Shown: piece after piece, positions 2,391-48,141 of the stretch | Layout of the letters: every line of letters begins with the position of its first letter | Position numbering within the stretch: position 1 is the stretch's first letter | NCBI GenBank assembly: GCA_026770025.1 | Contig: JAMXDE010000054.1 | Coordinates: 62,001-126,000, forward strand | Origin: Craspedostauros australis | Lineage: Eukaryota; Bacillariophyta; Bacillariophyceae; Mastogloiales; Achnanthaceae | Length of the DNA stretch: 64,000 nt | Direction: 5' to 3' | The notes under the pieces: generated by a model | Databases searched by the model: none | Told to the model about the DNA's origin: nothing | The model's input: only the letters and a program-made list of their open reading frames with translations | Translations under genes and position numbers: made by a program

Positions 2391-4100
2391 CATTCTTCGT
2401 GACAAGATCCTTTGGGGTGTGTTGTAAGTGCGCGCCGGGTTGGATTCGATTGCAATTGACATTTTATACACACGTTTTAATAGAGCCCAAACGTAATGGC
2501 TGTTGTCTTGTTGGCTGTTCTTTAGCTGTAGGCAGAGGCTTGACTGGCAAGCGATCCGGACGAGAGTCTTCTGTTCCACAAGTAGTCAATTTAGAATACT
2601 GGTAGATGGTGAAGAAATGTGCGGATTATGAGGTTAGTGCTATGGTTCTTCTCTTCGAGGGGAATCTCCTGTGATGTCCTGTATGACAATGCGTGTGGGT
2701 TGTGTAGCCCAAGTACCGTGGGTCGAGATCCGTCGTCTGGGTTCTGTGAGAGACAATGGGCGGTGATGCTCGTTGTTGTGGCTTCGGTTCCGTGCGTCGG
2801 CATTTTGGCGATGGTGGGTGTCAGAAACTTGATTATCGGAACCCCAATGGTTCCCTGACACGAATTCCGAAGATCCGCTTCAAGGTTATGGATCTGTCTC
2901 CAAACGTGGGGTTCGGCGAAGTGTCCGTTCGATCTACTGGAATGCTGACGAGTCGGATGATTCGTAGTCTCTCTCGCTAAGGTGGTTACTAGTTTAGCTC
3001 TATTACGTTTTGACAATCTACTGTGCAGTTTGGTGCGTAGCTCGCAGTACTGTCACCCACAGTACCACTCGAAATCTCCACATCCAGATATGGATGCCTT
3101 CCAGATGGACTGGAGATCTCATACTTCGTGACCAGATCCTTTGGGGTGTGTTGTAAGTGTGCGTCAGGTTGGATTTCATTGTGATTGACATTTTCTATCC
3201 ACATTTTGACAATCTACTGTACAGTATGGTGCGTACCTCGTTGTACTGCCACCCACAACACCACACAAAATCTCCACATCCAGATATGGATACCTTCCAG
3301 ATGGATCTAGGACCTCATACTTCGTGAACAGATCCTTTGGAGTGTGTTGTAAGTGCTCGACGGGTTGTATTTGATTGTGATTGACGTTTCCTATGCACAT
3401 ATGGGCAATCTACTGTACACTATGGTGCGTAGCTCGCAGTACTGTCACGCACAACACCACTCGAAATTTAGATTCTCAGATTTGACTACCTTCCAGATGG
3501 GCTGGAGACCTCATACTTCGTGACCAGACGCTTTGGGGTGTGTTGTAAGTGCGCGCCAGGTTGGATTTCCTTGTGATTGACGTTTATAGGCACTAATTCT
3601 CAATCTACTGTACTGTTTGATGCGTAGCTCACAGTACTGTCACCCACAGCACCACTCGAAATTTAGATTCTCAGATATGGATGCCTTCCAGACGGACTGG
3701 AGACCTCATACTTCGTGAACAGACGCTTTGGGGTGTGTTGTAAGTTCACGCCGGGTTGGATTTCATTGCGATTGACATTTTATATGCAAATTTTGACAAT
3801 CTACTGTACATTATGGTGCGTAGCTCACAGTACTGTCACACACAGCACCTCGATGTCCAGATCCATCGATTTGACTACCTTCCAGACGGATCTAAGACCT
3901 CATACTTCGTGAACAGATCCTTTGGAGTGCGTTGGAAGTGGGCGCCGGGTTGGATTTCATTGCGATTGACGTTTTATATGCACATTTTGACAATCTACTG
4001 TACACTATGGTGCGTAGCTCATAGAACTGTCACCCACACTACATGATATCTAGATTCTCAGATATGGATGCCTTCCAGATGGAGTGGAGACCTCATACTT
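2391..4100 (+). repeat. Tandem array, about 195-bp unit
   Basis: The block cttcgtgaMcagatcctttgg followed by gtgtgttgtaagtg recurs near 2393, 3121, 3318, 3511, 3710 and 3902, with a truncated copy near 4095. Spacings are 192-199 bp. The first spacing is about 730 bp and falls to about 197 bp once the 528-bp insertion and its 5-bp duplication are removed. Units differ at many sites, so the array is not very recent. A head-to-head inverted unit lies at about 2155-2330. Confidence 0.8.
2478..3005. mobile_element. Small inverted-repeat element (MITE-like), copy 1
   Basis: A 528-bp segment starting taatagagc and ending gctctatta, a 9-bp terminal inverted repeat. It is flanked by the 5-bp direct repeat cgttt (2473-2477, 3006-3010). 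It interrupts one unit of the 195-bp array. A homologous copy lies at 56292-56820 with its own 5-bp duplication. It encodes no recognisable protein. Superfamily is not assigned: short ends plus a 5-bp duplication are not diagnostic. Confidence 0.8.
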
Positions 4101-4557
4101 CGTGACTGTACTCGCTGAGGTGTTCTCGGAGTGGTGGAGTTGTTGTAATCAAGTATGCTTGACATTTTGTATGCACATATGACCAACATAGTACACACAG
4201 TGACCAAACGGTATCATGAGAACTGGCTATATGAGATTTATCACTCGTTGCAGCTGGATCTGGACCGTCCCAAGGTAGGTACATGCCCATGACCGATGTC
4301 AGTATGCAATATAGTTGGTTTAACCCTCTCCTCGTCTTCCGCAGAACAGGATTCATCAACACCATCAAAAACTGGAGTACTCTACACTACTAGACAGGGG
4401 CACGGTTGATGTGTTTACTTCACGGCTAAATTAATATTTTCGATGTTGTCGTAGAGACACGCCAGCCATTTCAGTCATCCAATCATCGTGTCGGGCACCA
4501 AAACGACCTGGTTAGTGGACTTTGGCCTCCAAAACGACCTGGTTAGTGAATTTCCTC
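4100..4557 (-). repeat. Right terminal inverted repeat
   Basis: Inverted partner of 1778-2230, ending at 4557 next to the second copy of the 10-bp target duplication. The inner boundary is approximate because the repeat grades into the tandem array. Confidence 0.8.
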
Positions 4558-4567
4558 GTATTTTTTC

Positions 4568-5190
4568 ACCTCATCATTCGGAAATGGATCTTGGTTGTTC
4601 GTGACTTACGATGTTTAATGGTGTCCTTTCGGTTAACTACGGTTAAGGTTTAGCGATACATACCTCGCCAGCATCTCTTGCATCCGCGACGTCATCATCT
4701 AGATTTATTCATGATGGGCATTTTATTGCGCTATTCTCAGGCTTCTGCGCTTGGTTGTCTCCCTTCTCCTGCAGCTTTTTGTGCATGCGAATTGCCTTGT
4801 TCGCCACAGGCGACGTGATCCTCGTAGTCATTCCATTTGTCCATGGTATCACACACACGAAACCCATTTCAGGAATGGCAAAGCCATAAAGATTCAGACT
4901 ATGAGGGTTATCGGGTCGTATGGACCCGCTGTATCATTCATTGGCTACTACCGTTGGGTGACACGGGCGTTCGCGTGAAAACCCTGTTCTGACCGTTTCA
5001 CATGTATCTCCGGTTGTGTCAACAACCCTTCATTGGTATCATCCATGCCATCGACAATAAATAATCAGAGGTCTCAATCCAATTCAACCATCGGCCATGC
5101 TTGACAACTTGCTCATGAAGATCAACATCCACCATTCCATTTTGACGACAGCAACCCCAGACCGCGCATGAAGGTACTACTCCTATTTCA
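4568..5190. other. Intergenic, no gene seen
   Basis: Sequence between the Mutator-like element and the retroelement cluster. No supported coding region, RNA gene or repeat was recognised. Confidence 0.4.
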
Positions 5191-5356
5191 TGAAGGATAA
5201 CAGCTTTACTGTACTTCTTACGTTTTACTTGTCGTATTAATCCAAAATACTGGTCAGAGATCGTCCTCGGACGACTCACAATAAAACACAAGAGCTTCGA
5301 CCAGGGCATGCAACAACAGGCCAATACGTCTTCATTAGTTCCTTGTGCAGTGTGAC
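5191..5356 (+). repeat. Old diverged LTR, possibly solo
   Basis: Starts TG, ends CA, and aligns over most of its 166 bp with the 170-bp LTR of the copia element just downstream. Shared blocks include aaatactggtc, ctcggac, cgaccagggca and ggccaatacgtct. It is clearly more diverged than the LTR pair at 5465/11186. No matching flanking duplication was found, consistent with age. Confidence 0.6.
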
Positions 5357-5464
5357 AAAGGACATGGCAACGTCCGTGATGCATTTGATGGTCACAATGA
5401 TGCTGGCTTCAGCGATGGTGTTGATTGTGGCGGTGTTGGCATATATAGCCGTGATGACGCCCAG

Positions 5465-5634
5465 TGACAATTCTCACAGAATTCCTTACTTCTTACTTCT
5501 TTACTAATCGTACTAGTCAAATACTGGTCGGGGGCTGTCTTCGGACAGCACTCACAAATAATCAACAAGAGCTCCGACCAGGGCACGCAACAACGGGCCA
5601 ATACGTCTACCGTAGTTACTTGTACTGTTTGACA
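5465..5634 (+). repeat. Copia-1 left LTR
   Basis: 170 bp, begins tgacaattctcacag and ends tgtttgaca. Essentially identical to 11186-11355. Confidence 0.92.
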
Positions 5635-7195
5635 GATTAAGAGTCGTGCTTACCAACACTGAGCAACACCCAACACCACACCAACCTTTCACCATCTTTT
5701 ACCGTCTTACGAGCTATCACCATGGACCGACCAACCAACATCAACACCTTCAACAAGATCATCCAAGAGCTGGTTCAGCTCGATGACGAAGAGATGGCGT
5801 TCCTCAGTGAGAAACTCGGGAGAATCGATCGTGTCATCCGCAACCCAGATGCCACCATCGTGGCGGCTTTGGCGCTCTCGCCAACGCTGTCATCAATCAA
5901 CATCACCAACATCCTCCGCATCTTCGCGTACGCAAGGTCCAACACCATCACTGCGCGAACTGATTGGGCAGCAATCGACTTGTTCAACGAAGCGAACAGC
6001 TACGTGCCACCAGAAGTTAGCACGCCAGTCGCGAACGCAGCCGCTCAAATCCGATCGGAGATGGCGATCAGAGAGGCAGCCGCAGCAGCGGATGCCACTG
6101 GCACAACAGGTCGCGAGATCACGGTCAGCTCACCGAGCCGCGTGACACGCACCGCCAGATCACCACGAACCCCAAGAACTCCGTCAGGATGGAAGTTCGA
6201 CAAGATCAGCATGCCAGAAGCACCTGAATTCACCGGGAATAGTTGCGACTGGTATGACTGGAAGATCGCATTCAAGTGACAGCTGGTCACATCCAGATAT
6301 GCCGCGTACCTCGATGTCGACAAGCCATCACACTTCAGCGAGGAGATCGACGCGCAACTCTACACTGTCCTGCACACCAAGACAGAGAAGGGGTGCGCAG
6401 CATTCATCGTGGAAGCATATGACCCCAACGGCCATGATGCATACCAGGCACTCGTACGCACGTACGAATCCGTCGACAACAAAGCTGAGGCCATCGTCGA
6501 GGAAGAACAGAAGATCGCCGAGCTCCGTTACGATGGATCAGAGCCCTTCCCAGTATTCGTCAATGCTTTCTTCAAATGCATCCGCGTATTGGAGCAAAAC
6601 GGAAAGCAGATGACCGACCAGCAAAAGATCGCGAAGTTCTTTTGCAGCATCACGGACGATCGCTTCACAAGCGAGATGTCCAGATTCCGTAACACGGAAC
6701 AATCCTTCAACGCAATCCGCGAGGCGTTCATGCAACATGACGCGCTCCTCACGAAGTCGGAAGGACACTACTCTCCCAAGCGCACCCGTCGCTACCAGCA
6801 GAAGGACACCAAGGACGACTGCAAGAGGCCACGCGAATCTTCCAAGTGGGATTGCAAGGGCGCCGCATCGTTTCGGTTGCCGGACTCCGTCTTCCGTCGC
6901 ATGCCAGTGAGCACTCAAGTGCTCCTCGTCGAAGCGTCTCGTCACTTCCGCACTACCGGGAAACCAATCGATGAGGAAACCCTCAAGCGCAACAAACCGA
7001 CAGAGTACGCGCGCAACCTCGAGTTGCCAATGACCCAGCGAGGGCCCAAGCGGCCTCGCACAGGGGACCACAAGACCGGACGACCCAGCACCCAAGGACC
7101 ATGGAACGCCGGTTCTTGACAATCAACGACGGGCACAACTCGCCGTCAGTCGGAGATTGTCATCACCTCAAACCCCGCGACTGTAGGGGGCGAGC

Positions 7196-10100
7196 GTGAC
7201 GACCGCAGCGGGAATGCCCGGACGTGCACGTCTGGAGGTACCACAAGAGTCCCGTCCGTGCACAACCCACCCGACAGTGGAGCACTGCATCCGAAGGGCA
7301 AGAGTAACGAATAGCCAAGGCTTTATCATCCTAGACTCAGGGGCGGACGGAGACATCGTTCATGCGTCGGGCTGGGAGGTGACCCACACACACCAACAAG
7401 AGTTTCGTGCCCGAGGGGCGACAATGGACTCACCAATCAAGACATTCCAGATGGTCGACGCGGTGGCAGCATACGAGCCCCCATCAGGCGGCGTGATCCT
7501 CATCAAAGCGAACTACGTGGCTCTCGACAAGCATCCACAGCAGACGGAATCACTGTTTAACACACATCATATGCGCGCGTCCGGACTGAACGTCTATGAT
7601 CGCCTAATCGAACACCAGGGACAGCAGCGGGTCTCATCGGATGAAATCAGCATACCACTGGAGAACCATGAAGGCAACACGCTCCGAATTCCCATCAGAA
7701 AGCCAACAGCCCACGAGATGGCGACGGCACAGCATATCATCATATGCGACAGACACCAGCGTCTACGACGCAATGCGGGTCGGGTCGATTTCACGCGAAT
7801 CTTCCGACACCTTCCACCACACGTGGTGGAGAAGACAATGGCGGCATCCACTCAACTGGCGGATACTCCGATCGAGGCAGAGTCAAGGCTTATCCCACGG
7901 CAGTATCGAGCTCAGCGAGCAGGAGTGCTGCAACCCAACAGAATCGACGGAAGAGTTGACACGGACACGTTCTTCTCCACCGTCCAGTCCATCCGGCACT
8001 ACAAGTGCTTCCAGCTATTCTCGCACAACCAATCGAAATTCATCTGGGCGAAGCCATTGAGCCGCGAGGCCATGGCGCCAGGGGCGCTCACGGATTTCAT
8101 CATCCGCGTCGGCGCTCCGGATCTACTCGTCTCAGACAATTCGCAGGTGCAATCGGGCAAGGCATGGAAAGCGGTCACATCCCGCTATCTGATCAAGCAC
8201 CAATTCACTGTGCCCATGAATCAGAACCAGAACCACGCAGAACGGGCAATTGGCGATGTCAAGCGACATGCATACCAGCTACTATGGGCGGCCTCGGCGC
8301 CACTCTCATTCTGGTGCTATGCTGTGCAACACGCTATTGACGCATGGAATTACACGGCGAAGGCAAGCCTCCAATGGCGCACTCCGATTGAGATTCTTCG
8401 CGGCAACACTCCCGACATCTCGATGTTCCGTTTCACGTTCTTCCAACCCGTATGGTTCTTCGAACCCATGACCAAATTTCCCAACCATCCATTCAAGCCA
8501 GGATACTTCCTTGGCATCGCATGGAATCACGGCAATCCATTCACCTACACCATATGGTCTCCACGAGGCGATGACGTCACGAAGGGCACCGCGCTTGTGC
8601 GCAACATTGTCAAGCCGCGTGTCGTCGAAGACGCCATTCCTCCACGCATCACAGACGCGGAGGTCAACCGCATCGCTCGACTCGATATCATCCACACCAC
8701 TACGCGCGGCGAATCCGGCGAACGCGCCAGAACCAAGACATTGCCGGCGGAGCTCGCTCGACAGGTCCGCGAGGCCATCGACGCGATTGCTGTGCAGTCA
8801 GGGGCGGCGGCGGGTCCGCCGGAGCCGGAGACGCAGGAGGTCAGGGGCGTATCCGAGAATAACACGCCAGCAGGCACGGCTGACCGGTGGTTCGGTCAAC
8901 CAGACATAATTCCCAACGACGGCGACATGCCGGAACATAATGCACACGGCGTCATCTCAGATGACGACAGCGACGCATCCGCGGGTAACATCTCTGAGGC
9001 GACCGATGACTCCGAAGTCACGGCGATGCCAGATCCTCCGGAGCACCGCTCTCAGGGGCGTGAGTCCTCTCTCATCGAGAGAGAGCATGACGAGCTGTTC
9101 CGAAATCAGGTCGAAAACGAGAAATCTGACGACTTGGCAATCCAATCCATCCTCAGCCACGCATTCAGAGACGGACATCTACACTTCAATGTGCAATGGT
9201 CCAACACTGAAACGCAATGGTTCCGATACGACGTGATCCGAGCTGACCATCCCGAAATGGTAGCACGGTACATCATCGACAACGAACCACGACGCAACGG
9301 TCGCCACAATCGGCAATCACAAGTCCTACTCAAGTGGGCGAAACATGCTCTGCGAGCCATCAGGCGCAGAATCCGAAGAATCGAGCAGACTCGAGCCTTC
9401 ACAATGGATGAGAACGACAACATCATCATCATCAGACGAATCCGTCCAGGCAAGAAGAAGCCGAAGCGAGACTACTTCGCCACTGTATATCAATACGGTG
9501 TCGAGGTCCCACGCAACATGAAACATGCATTGCAACTGGATGAAGCAAATGGGGATCACCAATGGAGAGATGCAGCGAAGAAAGAGATCGACGCATTGAT
9601 CGAACTCGACTGCTTCACATTCCACCCATCGACATACCAACCACCAGCAGACTATCAGAGCACGAAACTCCGACTCATATTCGCGGTCAAGCAAAATCTG
9701 CGACGTAAGGGGCGCTTGGTAGCAGGCGGGCATCTCATCGAGCTGGCGGACAACATCCGAGTCTACTCTTCAACCGTCAAGTCGACAAGCGTCCGCATCC
9801 TTGATGCAATAGCAGATGCAAACAACCTGCAACAGCTATGTGGCGACGTCGGCAACGCATTCGTCAATGCGTACACCAATGAGAAGATCTACGCGACAGC
9901 AGGAAAGGCATTCGACGACAAAGAAGGACAAGTCATCGTGCTCAAGAAAGCACTATACGGTCTTCGGTCAAGCGCTCAACGATTCCATGCACACTTCGCC
10001 AACACTCTCTCATCGATGGGATTCACGCCATCTCGGCATGATCAAGATGTATGGATCCAGTGCAGAGACGACTCTGGCTACGACTACATCTGCACCCATG

Positions 10101-39638: not shown

Positions 39639-41885
39639 TCAGAACGGCACGTTATCATAGTCTTCTGGCGCTGGCACATCCGCCTTGTCTTTGGGTGTGT
39701 ACGCCCTCTTCTTCTGTGTGGGAGAATAGAACTGGTTGCCGCCGACTGCCGCGGATCGCGCCGATGTGCTGTATTCTCGTTTGGGCATGGGTTCCGAACC
39801 CACACCACCAAATCCAAAGTGATTTGCGATGGCGCTGTACGAGCGCTCTTCCGCCTCCTGCAGCTTTTCGTAGGGGAAGTTGGACCGCTTCATCTTGTCC
39901 AGAAATGTTCGCTTGATCGTGTAGAAGTCCATGTCATCGTAAAACGAGATCACACGATCCACATCCAACTCCGTCATCCTCATCACCGACAGCTCATCTG
40001 CATCCATCGCAGTCTCATCCGCAGGACGGATCATGGAACCAAAAGGCACATCACGCTCCAGCTCCACCAACACGCGAGACAAACGGGCCTGATCCTCATT
40101 CTCCATCAACGTTTCACGACGCTTCTTCTGCTTGATATCATCCACATTCTCATAAATACCATCCAACGACCCATACTCGTTGATCAGCTGCGCGGCGATC
40201 TTCGGTCCAATGCCTGGCACACCAGGCACGTTGTCGGCCGCATCACCTGCCAACGCCAACACATCACCCAGCTGATCCGAGTTGACGTTCCACTTCTCGA
40301 CCACAGCATCATGATCGACTCGGCTCATCTTCATGGGATCGATCATCTGACACACCCCAATGCCACCATCGCTGTCAGATGCATTGGGAGTGATGAGCTG
40401 CATGAGATCCTTGTCACCTGACAGGATGTTGACATCCATTCCCATCTGTGTGGCTTTGCATGCCAGAGTGGCGATGACATCATCTGCTTCGAAACCAGCC
40501 GCTTCCACTTGTGGTATGCCGTATGCTCTGCCGGCTTCACGGATGAGACTGAACTGAGGGATGAGATCGACGGGCACGTCGGGTCGTTGTGCTTTGTAGA
40601 GGGGATAGATCTCGTTTCTGAATGTGGGTCCAGGTGCATCGAACACGAGGACGAGTCTTGGTCGTTCTTGGTTGAGCATTCTGTTGAGCAGCATCCTGTT
40701 GAGCATGTTGCAGAATCCGAGGACGGCGCCAACGGGCATTCCGTCGCCTCTGTGCATGGGTGGCATGGAGTGGTATGCTCGGAAGATATAGGCGGATGCA
40801 TCGACGAGCAGCAGCGGGTCCTTCGACCGGACCACCTGGCGTTTCTTCGACTCGCCGGCGTTGGGGGCGACGTCCGCCACAACCTTGGACATGATGGGTT
40901 TCTTGGAAGCTGCCGCTGCTTTGGGAGAACGCTTGGGTTTGGTTTGCGTCATGATGTTGAAGACGTGCGTGCCGGCCTCCCTGGCCTCCTTCGTTTTGAT
41001 CACCCTGGCGCGGCGGTACTTGAGGCTGCGGTGCTCCAGGATCAATCCGGCCATGGGATTCTGATGCGCGATACCTTCCAGCGTGCTCTTGTTGGTGGAC
41101 CTCCCCTCGATGCCAAAGAGAGCCATGGAAACCTGCTTGGGACTCCCGACCTTGAATTCCTTGCCGTCGTTCATTTCGAAGATGCGCACCTCCAAACTCT
41201 CGAGGTCAAGATCGATCTGCTCTAACGTGCTTTCCTGGTGGCTGCGTTTGCCGGGCATGGGGGATTGCTTCGTCGTCGCGCCGCGTTCATTTGGCTTGTT
41301 TGTTTTGTCTGCAGCTTGTGCAGTGACCGACGGTTTACTGCCACCGGAAGACGCAGTGGAGTCTTGATCCGGCGCTTCCTTGACTTCGGCATCACTCAAG
41401 ATGTTGTCATCCGTGGCCTTCGTGGAGGCGGTCACGGGACCCGCAGACTTCTGTGGAGGCTTCTGTGCAGACTTCTGTGGAAACTTCATTGGTTGATAGC
41501 CATATTCATCCTCATCATGTGCTGTCAAATCCATACCAACATCAACGAAGTCGTTGAGCGAATCGGAAGGATCGGGCAGTGAGGAATATGACATGAAGTC
41601 GTTGAACTCAGCCCCCGACATCTCCTCAGCGTAATTGTTGATGGGCCAATAATGGCTAGAGGCCTCGTCGTCGCCGTCGTCACCGGCCTTGGAGTACAGC
41701 GTGGGCGACGATGAATAGATGGACTGCCGTTGCTTGCGGAAGTTGTGCGAACGGCCATGCTGCTGCTTCGCTCTGTGCCTCACAGCGCGCCATGCTTGAC
41801 GCTGAAACGTCCACATATGCACCACGCGAAACGACGAGGCTATCAGCAACACCGAGAGCAGCCGCCGGAGGTCAGGATTGGGCAT
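39639..41885 (-). CDS. Plastid-targeted 5'-3' exonuclease, paralog A
   Basis: 748 aa, single exon. N-terminus MPNPDLRRLLSVLLIASSFR: a signal peptide ending at ASSF, close to the ASAF motif of diatom plastid precursors, then a basic transit-like stretch. Residues about 220-290 contain EFKVGSPKQVSMALFG and AGLILEHRSLKY, which match the region before the palm of family A DNA polymerases. Residues about 359-652 are a complete polI-type 5'-3' exonuclease: LLLVDASAYIFRAYHS, FEADDVIATLA, ILSGDKDLMQL and GVPGIGPKIAAQLINEYG. A 90-residue tail follows. Role inferred: flap/RNA primer removal in organelle DNA replication or repair. The polymerase domain itself is absent. Confidence 0.85.
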   Translation of the reverse strand: MPNPDLRRLLSVLLIASSFRVVHMWTFQRQAWRAVRHRAKQQHGRSHNFRKQRQSIYSSSPTLYSKAGDDGDDEASSHYWPINNYAEEMSGAEFNDFMSYSSLPDPSDSLNDFVDVGMDLTAHDEDEYGYQPMKFPQKSAQKPPQKSAGPVTASTKATDDNILSDAEVKEAPDQDSTASSGGSKPSVTAQAADKTNKPNERGATTKQSPMPGKRSHQESTLEQIDLDLESLEVRIFEMNDGKEFKVGSPKQVSMALFGIEGRSTNKSTLEGIAHQNPMAGLILEHRSLKYRRARVIKTKEAREAGTHVFNIMTQTKPKRSPKAAAASKKPIMSKVVADVAPNAGESKKRQVVRSKDPLLLVDASAYIFRAYHSMPPMHRGDGMPVGAVLGFCNMLNRMLLNRMLNQERPRLVLVFDAPGPTFRNEIYPLYKAQRPDVPVDLIPQFSLIREAGRAYGIPQVEAAGFEADDVIATLACKATQMGMDVNILSGDKDLMQLITPNASDSDGGIGVCQMIDPMKMSRVDHDAVVEKWNVNSDQLGDVLALAGDAADNVPGVPGIGPKIAAQLINEYGSLDGIYENVDDIKQKKRRETLMENEDQARLSRVLVELERDVPFGSMIRPADETAMDADELSVMRMTELDVDRVISFYDDMDFYTIKRTFLDKMKRSNFPYEKLQEAEERSYSAIANHFGFGGVGSEPMPKREYSTSARSAAVGGNQFYSPTQKKRAYTPKDKADVPAPEDYDNVPF
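39929..40809 (-). repeat. 881-bp block near-identical to 43050-43930
   Basis: Covers exactly the exonuclease core of paralog A. Aligned by eye without gaps to the same block in paralog B, with about 26 differences (about 97% identity), mostly silent. Identity stops abruptly at both edges. Confidence 0.85.
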
Positions 41886-42450
41886 GGCAAACTATGAATG
41901 CGGGCTTCGTTTGCGTATGGGATGCAGAGAATGCTGCGTGTCCTCGAGTTCGTGTTGGTCCTGCACAGTGTTACTGACGATCTACTCACACTCATTGGAC
42001 TGTGCGCACTGTGTTGGTTGAGGGATGTTCCGCGTCGATTTGGAAAGTTTCGCGATTTCTCGCAGTTGTGTTGCGCTTGGAAAATTGTTGGTTTGTGTTT
42101 CGGATTTTGTGGAGAATCCTCGACTCGTTCGAATCAATCTCAATTGTGCGATAGTCCACAAACGTCATGATGTGACGAGTTTAGAGGTGTTGTCCGCTCC
42201 ACTCTACTCTGCTCTACCGTACTCTACTCGTACATGGTATGATCAGCCTTGACGATCACAACAGAACATTGAATCAAAGAATAGGACCGAGTTAAATTGA
42301 GGTGAACAGCTATCTTGTTTCTGGTGGTGGAAGGTTGGTGGCGTCTGGTCCCCGGGCCACATCCCACTCTTTGGAATGGTTCCTGCGTTTACTCCTATTA
42401 TTCGATTCGACATTGTTTCGCAAATTTTGTCGGCGCGGTCGCTGCATTCG
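41886..42450. other. Intergenic between exonuclease paralogs
   Basis: 565 bp: promoter of paralog A and 3' flank of paralog B. No gene recognised. Confidence 0.5.
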
Positions 42451-45084
42451 CTAGAATGGGACACCGTCGTAGTCTTTGGGCGTCGGCACAGCCGCCTGCT
42501 TGCTCGCGATGATCAGCAGAGCCTTCCGCACGTTTTCGTCTTCGTAGTAATCCAGAAATAGTTCTTCCTTGTACGATGTGAGGAAGATGTCATTGGGTGG
42601 GTCCGCAACCAAGGCCTCCCACTCATCGATGGACCTCGAGCCCTTGCTTTTGGCCTGCTTATGGGCGGAGAGATAGATTTCGGCTGGTGCGCTGGAGAGG
42701 AAGTGCTGCGTCTCTTCAGCGAGAGCAGCAAAGAACTGCCGAGTGCTCGTCGAGGGGAGGATCTGGTCCTCGCCAAGTTGTTCGGTGCGACCGCCGCTGT
42801 CGCTGTGATCGCTTTCGTTGCTATCACTGCGACGGTCGAGATTTATCTGTACCTCTCCTTGGGCGGCCGCATGCGCCGCGTCGGCGCGATCAGTTCCAAG
42901 CCTGTCTTTGTCCTTGCTGTGGTTTGGGTTTGCATTCCCTTCCATCTTGGCGCAGTCAATGCATTCGGTTGAGTTCTTTGCGGATGCCGAGGCTCCTTCG
43001 CTTTGCGGTCGCAATCGTTCTGTCATCTGCTGCTTCACCTTCGTGAATCCCATGTCATCGTAAAACGAGATCACACGATCCACATCCAACTCCGTCATCC
43101 TCATCACCGACAGCTCACCTGCATCCATCGCAGTCTCATCCGCAGGACGGATCATGGAACCGAAAGGCACATCACGCTCCAGCTCCACCAACACGCGCGA
43201 CAAACGGGCCTGATCCTCGTTCTCCATCAACGTCTCACGACGCTTCTTCTGCTTGATATCATACACATTCTCGTAAATGCCATCCAACGACCCATACTCG
43301 TTGATCAGCTGCGCGGCGATCTTCGGTCCAATGCCTGGCACACCAGGCACGTTGTCGGCAGCATCACCTGCCAACGCCAACACATCACCCAGCTGATCCG
43401 AGTTGACGTTCCACTTCTCGATCACAGCGTCATGATCGACTCGGCTCATCTTCATGGGATCGATCATCTGACACACCCCAACACCACCATCGCTGGCAGA
43501 TGCATTGGGAGTGATGAGCTGCATGAGATCCTTGTCACCTGACAGGATGTTGACATCCATTCCCATCTGTGTGGCTTTGCATGCCAGAGTGGCGATGACA
43601 TCATCTGCTTCGAAACCAGCCGCTTCCACTTGTGGTATGCCGTATGCTCTTCCGGCTTCGCGGATGAGACTGAACTGAGGGATGAGATCGACTGGCACGT
43701 CGGGTCGTTGTGCTTTGTAGAGGGGATATATCTCGTTTCTGAATGTGGGTCCAGGTGCATCGAACACGAGGACGAGTCTTGGTCGCTCTTGGTTGAGCAT
43801 TCTATTGAGCAGCATTCTGTTGAGCATGTTGCAGAATCCGAGGACAGCGCCGACGGGCATCCCGTCACCTCTGTGCATGGGTGGCATGGAGTGGTATGCT
43901 CGGAAGATGTAGGCGGATGCATCGACGAGCCACAAGGCGTCGTCGTCGACGGCTTCTGACTGCTGTTCGCTTGATGCATCCATGGATATCGTGCTGTCGG
44001 CTGAAAAGTTGCCGTGTGCGTGTTTCAACGCAGTTCGTGCGCGCCGTTTCCGCCAGAAGTGGCGCATCTTCATTCGTTGGTGCTCTTTCTTCCTTTGCAG
44101 ACGCGACAGCGACGACTTGATAGTGCGATGCTTCAGCATCAACGAAGCAAATTCGCTGTGCCGTGCCATTCTCTCCAACACCTGCTTGCTGGTGGATCGC
44201 GTCGCGTTGCCGAACAGGAGCTTGGCGACCTGCCGGGGACTGTTGACATTGAATTCGGTGCCGTTCGCATGATTCGCAATGATGGCTTCCTCGACCCTCC
44301 GAAGCTGCCGGCTCGCTTCATCCAGCCGATTCTCGAGATACTGTCCGCGTCCACCATACTTGGCGCGCTCCACGAAGAACTTGTATGCGTCTTCATCGAT
44401 TCCAACCAAATGGGAATTTTTGCCCAATTCCACATGGCGCAGTGCAAAATAGCCTTCGGGAACGCTGTTGGCCCTGTCGGTCATCCTGAAGGATGGTTCA
44501 TAGCCGTCGCTGTTGCCATCGCCGTGCTCGTCATAAGTATCACCTCCATTGATGCCACGCTGTTTGTGAAACTGATTGATGTACTCGTTGTCGATTGCTC
44601 TCCAATATTGCGCGCTGCTATCCTCCCCCAGTTGTTTCTGTACATCCAAACTGGTACTCATCCTCATTTCGTCACTCCAAAGTCCATCTTCTTTCAGTTG
44701 GATTGGTGCATCTCCCGCTTCCATCGTTCCATTGACGAGTGGATCATGCGCCTGGGGCGATGGTTTGCCATCCTCTTCTCCCACAGAACGTCGCTGTGCA
44801 CGGATTCGCGTGGAAGTTGCACATCTGAATCGATCCGCTTGTGTCCTTCCTCTGTTGTCAGCTCGGAGTCGCAGGAGGATGCCGCCAGCATGGAGAATCG
44901 CACCGAAACCCGAAGATGGCGGGGTTGTGCGGATCCATGTCTCTGGCTTGGCAACATTTCCGACAGTGCTGCTGCCATTGAGGGGATGGAAACCACTGGC
45001 CACTCCCTTGCACCCATCAAAGCCCGTGTTGCATGGCAGCAACAGCATGATGCGCGTCAACAATCCCAACCACCGACATGTCAT
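42451..45084 (-). CDS. 5'-3' exonuclease, paralog B
   Basis: 877 aa, single exon, tandem and same-strand with paralog A. The N-terminus (MTCRWLGLLTRIMLLLPC, later VASGFHP) is hydrophobic enough for a signal peptide, and ASGF could serve as the plastid cleavage site, but less clearly than in paralog A. Residues about 265-335 hold the same polymerase-A-like segment (EFNVNSPRQVAKLLFG). Residues about 385-679 are the exonuclease core, nearly identical to paralog A with the same acidic metal-binding residues. The 200-residue C-terminal extension is longer and unrelated to that of A. Role inferred as organelle replication/repair. Confidence 0.83.
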   Translation of the reverse strand: MTCRWLGLLTRIMLLLPCNTGFDGCKGVASGFHPLNGSSTVGNVAKPETWIRTTPPSSGFGAILHAGGILLRLRADNRGRTQADRFRCATSTRIRAQRRSVGEEDGKPSPQAHDPLVNGTMEAGDAPIQLKEDGLWSDEMRMSTSLDVQKQLGEDSSAQYWRAIDNEYINQFHKQRGINGGDTYDEHGDGNSDGYEPSFRMTDRANSVPEGYFALRHVELGKNSHLVGIDEDAYKFFVERAKYGGRGQYLENRLDEASRQLRRVEEAIIANHANGTEFNVNSPRQVAKLLFGNATRSTSKQVLERMARHSEFASLMLKHRTIKSSLSRLQRKKEHQRMKMRHFWRKRRARTALKHAHGNFSADSTISMDASSEQQSEAVDDDALWLVDASAYIFRAYHSMPPMHRGDGMPVGAVLGFCNMLNRMLLNRMLNQERPRLVLVFDAPGPTFRNEIYPLYKAQRPDVPVDLIPQFSLIREAGRAYGIPQVEAAGFEADDVIATLACKATQMGMDVNILSGDKDLMQLITPNASASDGGVGVCQMIDPMKMSRVDHDAVIEKWNVNSDQLGDVLALAGDAADNVPGVPGIGPKIAAQLINEYGSLDGIYENVYDIKQKKRRETLMENEDQARLSRVLVELERDVPFGSMIRPADETAMDAGELSVMRMTELDVDRVISFYDDMGFTKVKQQMTERLRPQSEGASASAKNSTECIDCAKMEGNANPNHSKDKDRLGTDRADAAHAAAQGEVQINLDRRSDSNESDHSDSGGRTEQLGEDQILPSTSTRQFFAALAEETQHFLSSAPAEIYLSAHKQAKSKGSRSIDEWEALVADPPNDIFLTSYKEELFLDYYEDENVRKALLIIASKQAAVPTPKDYDGVPF
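43050..43930 (-). repeat. 881-bp block near-identical to 39929-40809
   Basis: Partner of the block in paralog A; same length, no indels. The flanking linkers do not align at nucleotide level. Confidence 0.85.
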
Positions 45085-45768: not shown

Positions 45769-48141
45769 ATGTCCAGCAGTCAATCGGAAGCGTGAGTTGT
45801 CTTGGTTTGGTTTGGATTGGTTTGGCCGCATCTCTCGGGAGAGGTGTACACAAATGCGACTACGCGTCTGAGCGTCCTTGTTGTACCATTCTGATAGTCC
45901 TTGTCACTCACACTGATGCTGGTGCTGGTGCTTTCCTTCTCTGGTCCAATTCAACCTCGACCTCCCAACCATACATCTCTTTCGTCACAATGGAATCAAT
46001 GTACCATACGCAGTGACAAGGCTGTCTGTGAGTGGATCAGACAGGTGGACGGTGCATGCATCAATCATAACTTGACAGAGCTTCAAGATCTGGTTGAATC
46101 GTATGCGGACGGAGCAGTCATCCCTTCCAATACGGTAGACGAGTACGGCGAAACTGTGTTTCATCGTGCATGTTCTCATGGAACCAGGGAGATGGTGAAG
46201 TATCTGGTGGAGTCTGATCGAATCGGTGTGGATGTCAATCTCCAAAACACGCAAGGACGCACGCCATTTCATCATGCTTGCTCGAATGGGCACAAGAGCA
46301 TCGTTGAATACTTGGTGGAATCGAATGAAATCGATGTGGATGCCAACATCAAATCCAACAGTGGTCTAACACCACTCTACCTCGCTTGTTCGAGTGGACG
46401 AAAAGCCATTGTTGAGTATCTGATGGAGTCCGATCGAATCGATGTGGATGTCAATATCAAAGACGACGACGGCCGGACAGTGCTTCATGGTGCCTGCAGA
46501 CACAACAACGCTGAGACTGTGAAGTATTTATTGGAATCCGGCCGAGTGCCCATCACCATGGAAGACAAAGACGGTTCCACATTGATCCATCACGCATGCG
46601 GGAGCAGACGGCCCGATGTACTGGATTACTTGGTGCAATCGAGTCATGTCAACGTTGACGCTTACATCAACAAACAGGACAAGGAAGGTTGCACGCCTTT
46701 GCATGTCGCATGTATGTTCGGTCACATCGATGTAGTCAGATACATGATGGAGTCGGATGGGATTGGTGTCGATGTCGACGTCAACGTCCGAGATAACAGT
46801 GGGAACACTCCACTCCATCATGCTTGTTGCAGTGGAGAGCATGAACTCATCGCATATGTGTTGGGTTTAGATGAACTCGATGTTCGTCCTGAGGTGATTG
46901 GACCAAACTGCGATGGTGATTCGCTGCTTCATCTTGCTAGCCTATGGGTGGAAAGTGATTTGATTATGTGTCTGATGGAAACGGATCGTATCGACATCAA
47001 CAGCATGCTTGGTATCAACGGCAACTGCAACATCCATGTCAGCGCTACCGCCAATGGGAGCATTCAAAACAACGAAGGGAATACACCGCTCCATCTCATT
47101 CTCAGACATTGGCCGGTCTTTGACGCGGTTGAGTATCTGATGAATCATGATCGCATCCTCACTCGCATCATGCTTCGCACCCAGAATGACGATGGGAATA
47201 CGCCCCTCCACATCGCTTGCTTGGAAAGGGAGCGAAGCTTCATCAAGGAATTGCTACAGTCACGCAAGAGCGATGCAATCCTCAACATCAACGACGACGA
47301 TAATGGCATCCATATCGATATCGACGACATCTTCAACATCCAAAACAACCATGGAAATACGCCTCTCCACCTCGCTTGCTTGGAAGGGGATCGAAGCTTC
47401 ATCAAGGAATTACTACAGTCACGCAAGACCGATGCAAACCTCAACATCCAAAACAAACATGGTGACACACCCCTTCACATTGCATTCAACAGGGGCATGT
47501 TCTTCACCTTCAATCACACCGCCAGGCTTCATCACGTCTTCGATTTCATCCAACACCAATTCATTCCCACAACCAACCTCATCCATCTCTCCAACAAGCA
47601 CAACCATGATGTTGGTGATGGTGATACCGTTGGTGATATGGAGATCATGCAACGGTTGAGGGAGAATGCCACAGCAATCGCGAACATTCAGAATCATGAT
47701 GGCACCACTCTCCTCCATCTCGCATGCAAGAAGGGTGATGTTTCTGTCCTTCGGAATCTGATCGGATGTGACTCAGTGGATGCCACGTTGCGAAACAGCA
47801 GGGGTGATACAGCATTGCACTGTATTTGCAAAGGAGCAGATAGAAATGTATCTGAGGATGGATGTGAAAGTGAGAGCGAGAGCGATGATCACAAGATTCG
47901 AGCTGAGAAGATGAAACTGTTGGTCGAATCGAACAAGGTGGATGTGGATGTGAACATGGTGAACGATGAGGGAGATACGGTGCTGCACTGTGCTGTGAAA
48001 GGCGAGTATTTGGAAGTGGTTGAGTATCTGATGACATTGGAGATGATCGATCCGCACATGCAGAACAAGAGTGGTGATACGCCGTTGCAATGTGCACAAG
48101 AGGAAGGTTGCGATGGGAGAATGTTGGCATTGTTTGAATAG
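45769..48141 (+). CDS. Ankyrin-repeat protein
   Basis: Two exons: 45769-45791 (23 nt, MSSSQSEA) and 46014-48141; intron 45792-46013 with GTGAGT...ATACGCAG. The splice restores an Ala codon and gives 716 aa. A start inside the intron (45901) would add a spurious hydrophobic leader. The protein is almost wholly ankyrin repeats (for example GRTPFHHACSNGHKSIVEYL, GNTPLHLACLEGDRSFIKEL), at least twelve, several with the variable insert VESDRIDVDVNI between helices. Two adjacent repeats (47216-47272 and 47378-47434) are close copies, a sign of recent internal duplication. No catalytic domain. Likely a protein-binding scaffold. A copia element begins 14 bp after the stop. Confidence 0.88.
45792..46013 (+). 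other. Intron of the ankyrin gene
   Basis: 222 bp, GT-AG, phase 2, directly after a 23-nt coding exon. Confidence 0.75.

Follow-up and report, generated by a model that had tools for sequence, protein, structure and literature searches.

A detached DNA polymerase I thumb lies before the 5'-3' exonuclease of two tandem algal genes and before MutS in an MSH1-type protein

Two tandem genes in the window (the whole stretch of 64,000 nucleotides that was analysed) each encode a Pol I-type 5'-3' exonuclease that is preceded by a detached thumb of a family A DNA polymerase, and a third copy of this thumb module is found N-terminal to MutS in an MSH1-type protein encoded elsewhere in the same genome. 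We propose that the products of the two genes, A and B, are probably organelle-type flap nucleases that share with the MSH1-type protein a Pol I thumb acting as an accessory clamp on duplex DNA, a reading in which DNA binding, organelle location and nuclease activity are putative.

Gene A (39639..41885, minus strand) is an uninterrupted single ORF of 748 aa that contains a leader, the Pol I thumb module and the exonuclease, and its tandem paralog, gene B (42451..45084, minus strand), is an uninterrupted single ORF of 877 aa with the same domain order; an in-frame stop lies 5' of the first ATG in both. The 5'-3' exonuclease cores of A (40035..40814, minus strand; residues 358-617) and B (43156..43935, minus strand; residues 384-643) match PF02739 and PF01367 with E-values of 3.5e-48 to 5.7e-29, above the curated cut-off (hmmscan, Pfam), and both contain all of the peptides VDAS, VFDAPG, EADD, SGDKD and GDAADN, which we take to hold the catalytic acids of 5' nucleases. 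Both proteins also match NCBIfam models of Pol I and of the 5'-3' exonuclease, with the exonuclease part as the best stretch and with every match under the models' own whole-protein cut-offs. Gene B is adjoined on the plus strand by a 746-aa ORF (45901-48141) that appears by eye to encode a long ankyrin-repeat protein.

The original prediction held that a segment of family A polymerase, of the kind normally found just before the palm, sits N-terminal to the exonuclease in both paralogs, and that the rest of the polymerase is missing. A search with hmmscan agrees on each point: PF00476 (DNA_pol_A) matches residues 219-297 of A (40995..41231, minus strand; profile positions 6-94 of 381, E 1.7e-6, 27.7 bits) and residues 249-328 of B (44101..44340, minus strand; profile positions 3-91 of 381, E 6e-7, 29.2 bits), and both peptides that the prediction had quoted are present in the A and B ORFs. 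The scores lie under the curated cut-off of 34.3 bits, a threshold calibrated on the complete family of 381 positions, as expected when the modules cover only a quarter of the profile. The matches stop at positions 94 and 91, leaving palm and fingers (the part of PF00476 past position ~95) unmatched in A and B, and hmmscan matched no 3'-5' exonuclease domain in either protein.

The segment before the palm is the thumb, as profile matches and predicted fold both indicate. When a profile built from the three modules (alignment A1 of A, B and the MSH1-type copy) was searched against all PDB sequences, it found 55 distinct sequences at E-values up to 1, of which 35 had E ≤ 0.001 (best 1e-9), and all 55 are Pol I DNA polymerases (Bst, E. 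coli, Taq and similar). The aligned stretch runs from helix H through the EFN(I/V)NSPKQ motif and the short tip helices (H1 and H2) into the beginning of helix I, in the helix nomenclature of the Pol I thumb. In the opposite direction, a profile of 34 bacterial thumbs was run on A, B, the MSH1-type protein, the genome's own polymerase and reversed copies of all four; each forward protein was found at E ≤ 5.2e-6, whereas a single reversed copy was reported, at E 0.43.

Structure prediction with AlphaFold2, for which the input was the A and B sequences only and no templates were used, yielded four helices in thumb order for each module, at 17-39, 50-58, 67-73 and 78-105 for A (pLDDT 85.6) and at 4-45, 56-64, 73-79 and 84-116 for B (pLDDT 79.8). 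Foldseek comparison of these models with the PDB returned 124 matches for A and 203 for B, and the best 50 in each case were all family A polymerases (Pol I, Taq, theta, nu), as assigned by description or entry code. These 100 matches had probabilities of 0.99-1.00 and TM-scores, normalised by query, of 0.53-0.68; none of the 50 for A or the 50 for B reached E ≤ 0.001, which we attribute to the short query. Taken together, the profile and fold comparisons make it near certain that the module is homologous to the Pol I thumb. Neither of the two outcomes that would have spoken against the original prediction, lack of a DNA_pol_A match or a predicted fold foreign to the thumb, was observed.

The window's own assembly (75 Mb, 90 contigs) was searched in six frames with PF00476, and this search found the genome's family A polymerase on contig C37, the two modules in the window and one more module, on contig C45. 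The C45 gene (L025, G000 C45, 1432-6696, minus strand) is an ORF of 1754 aa with MutS_I (E 4.7e-10), MutS_V (E 4.6e-35) and a C-terminal GIY-YIG domain (E 1.1e-4; 22.9 bits, just above the cut-off of 22.6), and its N-terminal module matches PF00476 positions 7-96 at residues 251-343 (E 1.5e-4; 21.3 bits, under the cut-off). Used as a query, the C45 segment finds the A module at 50% identity over 56 residues (E 2.7e-5) and the B module at 44% (E 0.012); the reciprocal searches find C45 at 48% with A (E 5.2e-6) and at E 0.007 with B, so the pairing of B with the MSH1-type copy is a weak one (E 0.007-0.012). MutS_V has eight matches in the genome, at about seven genes, and the C45 gene is the only one of these among the PF00476 matches. 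The MutS_I, MutS_V and GIY-YIG make-up is that of plant-type MSH1, which occurs in certain protists whose plastids derive from secondary endosymbiosis (PMC12292046). The N-terminal Pol I thumb, in contrast, is a feature of the C45 protein, and the word 'thumb' does not occur in the text of that review (PMC12292046).

Bacterial PolA contains the same two parts as A and B, a 5'-3' exonuclease and a thumb, but in the reverse order, and A and B differ from it further in having neither a 3'-5' exonuclease nor a DNA_pol_A match past the thumb. As a control for domain order, the exonuclease core was used to retrieve 47 bacterial loci. The module profile found a thumb in 34 of the 47, from ORF residue 551 onward and downstream of the exonuclease; of the 13 loci with no thumb, 12 have short ORFs (295-418 aa) and one (L027) is cut by a contig end. 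One of the 34 loci with a thumb (L058) has an extra stretch fitting the module profile at 313-346, with a negative score, and the order thumb then exonuclease occurs in none of the 47. The modules of A and B also differ from the bacterial thumbs at the tip, where the loop from LF to the Leu of H2 is 13 residues in both paralogs versus 23-25 in all 34 bacterial thumbs. The same loop spans 12 residues in the MSH1-type copy by alignment A1, and another alignment places the gap elsewhere, with the segment longer further on; we restrict the claim of an apparent shared tip-loop deletion to A and B.

The two paralogs diverge unevenly along their length. A block of 881 bp over the exonuclease core of A (39929..40809, minus strand) matches B (43050..43930, minus strand) with 26 mismatches and no gaps, a DNA identity of 97.0%, and this blastn alignment has sharp edges and diverged flanks of the kind that would mark a likely conversion tract. 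Outside the block, the only notable blastn alignments of A with B were one of 80 bases in the module (71%, E 4e-6) and one of 31 bases at the C-terminal tip (81%, E 0.008). Differences affect 11 of the 137 fourfold-degenerate sites of the core. The modules share 29 of 79 aligned residues (37% identity), and for the leaders and linkers the alignment is poor or absent. The simplest reading is that A and B are an old duplicate pair with a catalytic core recently homogenised by gene conversion; given this apparent homogenisation, the pair is probably older than one would judge from the 97% identity of the core, and the module appears to have been kept in both genes through long divergence.

These comparisons bear on the proposal, made in the original prediction, of an ancestral domain rearrangement kept in both copies. 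Retention is upheld by modules that persist at their present identity, but an order swap within one Pol I gene does not account by itself for a third copy that lies before MutS. Because this copy precedes MutS in an MSH1-type protein, a portable module fits the data better than an order swap within one Pol I gene, and we infer that the three detached modules share one origin.

A wide family of such modules in this genome was considered and set aside, as the searches that were run gave three detached copies only. No fourth detached module was found with PF00476 at E-values up to 10, with the three modules as protein queries or with two motif patterns, in genome searches that score the best first-look candidates only and that a weakly conserved fourth copy could escape. 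The first pattern had 12 matches in the genome, of which three are the modules and nine are not in a thumb context; the second, which A's variant motif does not fit, had three, comprising the B and MSH1-type modules and, by eye, an apparent arginyl-tRNA synthetase. Five scans of viral contigs returned 83, 0, 5, 4 and 0 stretches that fit a pattern, and no relative was confirmed among them.

Scores against thumb profiles are compatible with more than one source for the module. With the module profile, scores are 14-26 bits for bacterial Pol I ORFs and 6.5 bits for the polymerase of this genome, and the 34-thumb profile gives the own polymerase 15.6 bits (in three pieces), the MSH1-type protein 16.2, A 19.0 and B 25.6; the genome's own polymerase may still be the source, ~80 residues being too short to tell. 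For the exonuclease, the best segments of the A and B cores are 46-54% identical to the alphaproteobacterial loci that were found and 35-40% identical to others, so the core is nearest to alphaproteobacteria by identity, as it is by tree path. The tree, which contains bacteria plus A and B in a sample taken by peptide patterns with no cyanobacterium in its titles, places the pair on a long branch (1.3) outside the alphaproteobacteria, beside 15 rows that are mostly not alphaproteobacterial (fork 95/77, not starred). An alphaproteobacterial affinity of the exonuclease is a lead only.

The organism is an alga, as 61 light-harvesting matches in the genome indicate; for example, one light-harvesting protein matches five PDB sequences at E ≤ 1e-30, four of LHCI and one of a fucoxanthin chlorophyll a/c protein. 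Its family A polymerase locus on contig C37 (L026, G000 C37, minus strand) consists of two ORFs (4424-7321 and 3077-4042), one encoding a 3'-5' exonuclease and SAP domains and the other the palm. No 5'-3' exonuclease match was found at this locus, and a PF02739 search of the genome found A and B only. The half of the polymerase with the SAP domains has no PF00476 match at E ≤ 0.01 and matches thumb profiles only in pieces; by eye, the SAP domains sit where the H1-H2 loop of the thumb should be. Plant polymerases have two insertions in the thumb (PMC7699545).

The placement of palm and 5'-3' exonuclease on separate genes matches the division of labour described in plants, where POL1A and POL1B do not have the 5' nuclease and OEX1 and OEX2 supply it, the role of OEX2 being a likely one (PMC12164749). 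Like A and B, plant OEX1 and OEX2 (At3g52050, At1g34380) are free-standing Pol I-type 5'-3' exonucleases/flap endonucleases that exist beside an organellar polymerase without that domain (PMC12164749). The plant proteins differ in that they consist of a targeting sequence, PIN and H3TH, and a thumb module goes unmentioned in their description (PMC12164749). A and B would accordingly be counterparts of OEX1 and OEX2, doing the 5'-nuclease job that is missing from the separate organellar-type polymerase.

Both ends of the A and B proteins have features of note. Near each N-terminus lies a hydrophobic stretch, with maxima of 2.37 in A and 2.15 in B (a light-harvesting protein reaches 1.97); it is followed by IASSF in A and VASGF in B, where the genome's own light-harvesting protein has SAAAFAP. 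We take these sequences to be like the ASAFAP plastid motif, and the leaders suggest possible import of A and B into the plastid. At the other end, after poorly alignable tails, A terminates in DYDNVPF and B in DYDGVPF; the tips read VPAPEDYDNVPF (A, 39642..39677, minus strand) and VPTPKDYDGVPF (B, 42454..42489, minus strand), and the stop-anchored pattern of this tip occurs at two places in the genome, both in A and B. In our estimation the tip resembles the docking tip of bacterial SSB, and that it might serve as an SSB-like docking tail is speculative; the single SSB-family match found in the genome is in an ORF with an ending different from the A/B tip. This ORF (L087, G000 C15, 1300-2613, minus strand) has GGGWKSQPGE-like repeats in tandem ahead of the SSB fold, and its Asp-rich tail ends in NEFVF.

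The thumb of Pol I grips the duplex behind the primer terminus. If the module retains this property, the thumb at the N-terminus of each nuclease (helices H, H1, H2 and I, with the shortened tip loop) would clasp duplex DNA next to a nick, gap or flap and tether the nuclease to its substrate, much as primer-template is held by the thumb of a polymerase; the module before MutS in the MSH1-type protein would provide an extra grip on duplex. All three modules retain an Arg at Bst segment position 80 and the Ser of the NSPKQ motif, which presumably correspond to E. coli R631 and S582, both with a role in holding DNA. At two positions that we take to be DNA contacts in Pol I, Asn at position 29 is replaced by or kept as K/N/N, and Lys at position 84 as Y/S/K, in A, B and the MSH1-type copy, respectively. 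Charge also varies: residues 249-345 of B have 21 K+R versus 9 D+E, whereas the modules of A (14 versus 13) and of the MSH1-type protein (11 versus 11) are neutral. The clamp reading is therefore supported by the Arg and Ser kept in three of three modules, by a fold that is predicted whole and by the basic stretch of B, and it is weakened by the partial conservation of the Lys and Asn, by the short A/B tip loop, which is about half the bacterial length and presumably part of the DNA grip, and by the neutral modules of A and MSH1.

The features that weaken the clamp reading are those that fit its main rival, in which the module has lost DNA binding and is a docking surface for a shared partner (organellar polymerase, helicase or nucleoid protein) that brings the nucleases and MSH1 to one repair or replication site. 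A module common to functionally linked proteins of one genome would be expected of such a surface, and thumb insertions bind processivity factors in T7 and in a human family A polymerase (PMC7699545). Docking does not readily explain why the thumb Arg and Ser are kept in every module or why the B stretch is basic, and no partner is known; we consider it unlikely as the main role.

Less probable still, and in our view doubtful, is a reading in which tandem duplication of a Pol I gene left the module behind as an old, permuted remnant, which survives as a functionless spacer between targeting leader and nuclease. Tandem duplication of Pol I followed by a deletion would put the thumb of the first copy before the exonuclease of the second, and the closest sampled bacterial relatives of the core by identity are full-length alphaproteobacterial Pol I genes. 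The modules, however, keep their motif and predicted fold while the surrounding leader and linker no longer align, and a Pol I leftover alone would not explain the copy in MSH1.

It is very improbable that module and nuclease are joined only in the gene model, as parts of one ORF and not of one mature protein: the models do rest on a six-frame reading of the genome, but uninterrupted ORFs join module and catalytic domains at all three loci, with stops upstream of the first ATG in A and B and an uncertain start codon position at C45. Chance similarity of a helical hairpin to a thumb, for which one could cite single PF00476 matches under the curated cut-off and Foldseek E-values above 0.001 among the best 50, is ruled out for practical purposes by the exclusively Pol I matches of the profile in the PDB, the family A identity of the best 50 structural matches of each model and the agreement of three loci.

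Returning to the clamp reading, a precedent exists for one nucleic-acid module carried by different organellar DNA-repair proteins. Many Viridiplantae have DPD1 fused to MutS1, and many green algae in which MutS1 has been lost have it fused to RecG (PMC12292046). DPD1 is a 3'-5' exonuclease, whereas the module described here is a polymerase thumb without catalysis. Each domain of the three proteins is known; the detachment of the thumb, its placement and its sharing with MSH1 seem to be unreported, and we claim no priority. Full-text literature searches, judged on titles and the starts of abstracts and with subscription papers and eukaryote domain databases outside their scope, found no report of a free thumb, of its place before an exonuclease or of its sharing with MSH1.

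The thumb is usually considered integral to the polymerase hand, so a lone thumb with a predicted independent fold before a flap-type nuclease and before MSH1 would offer a natural test of a stand-alone duplex clamp. The module links two kinds of organelle repair protein, and we tentatively suggest, with rather less assurance than for the clamp itself, that in secondary-plastid algae the detached thumb might be a portable DNA clamp carried by several enzymes of organelle-genome maintenance (flap nuclease, MSH1) and marking proteins that work on the same organellar DNA structures. The thumb fusion may also serve as a searchable signature for more organelle DNA-maintenance factors in algae.
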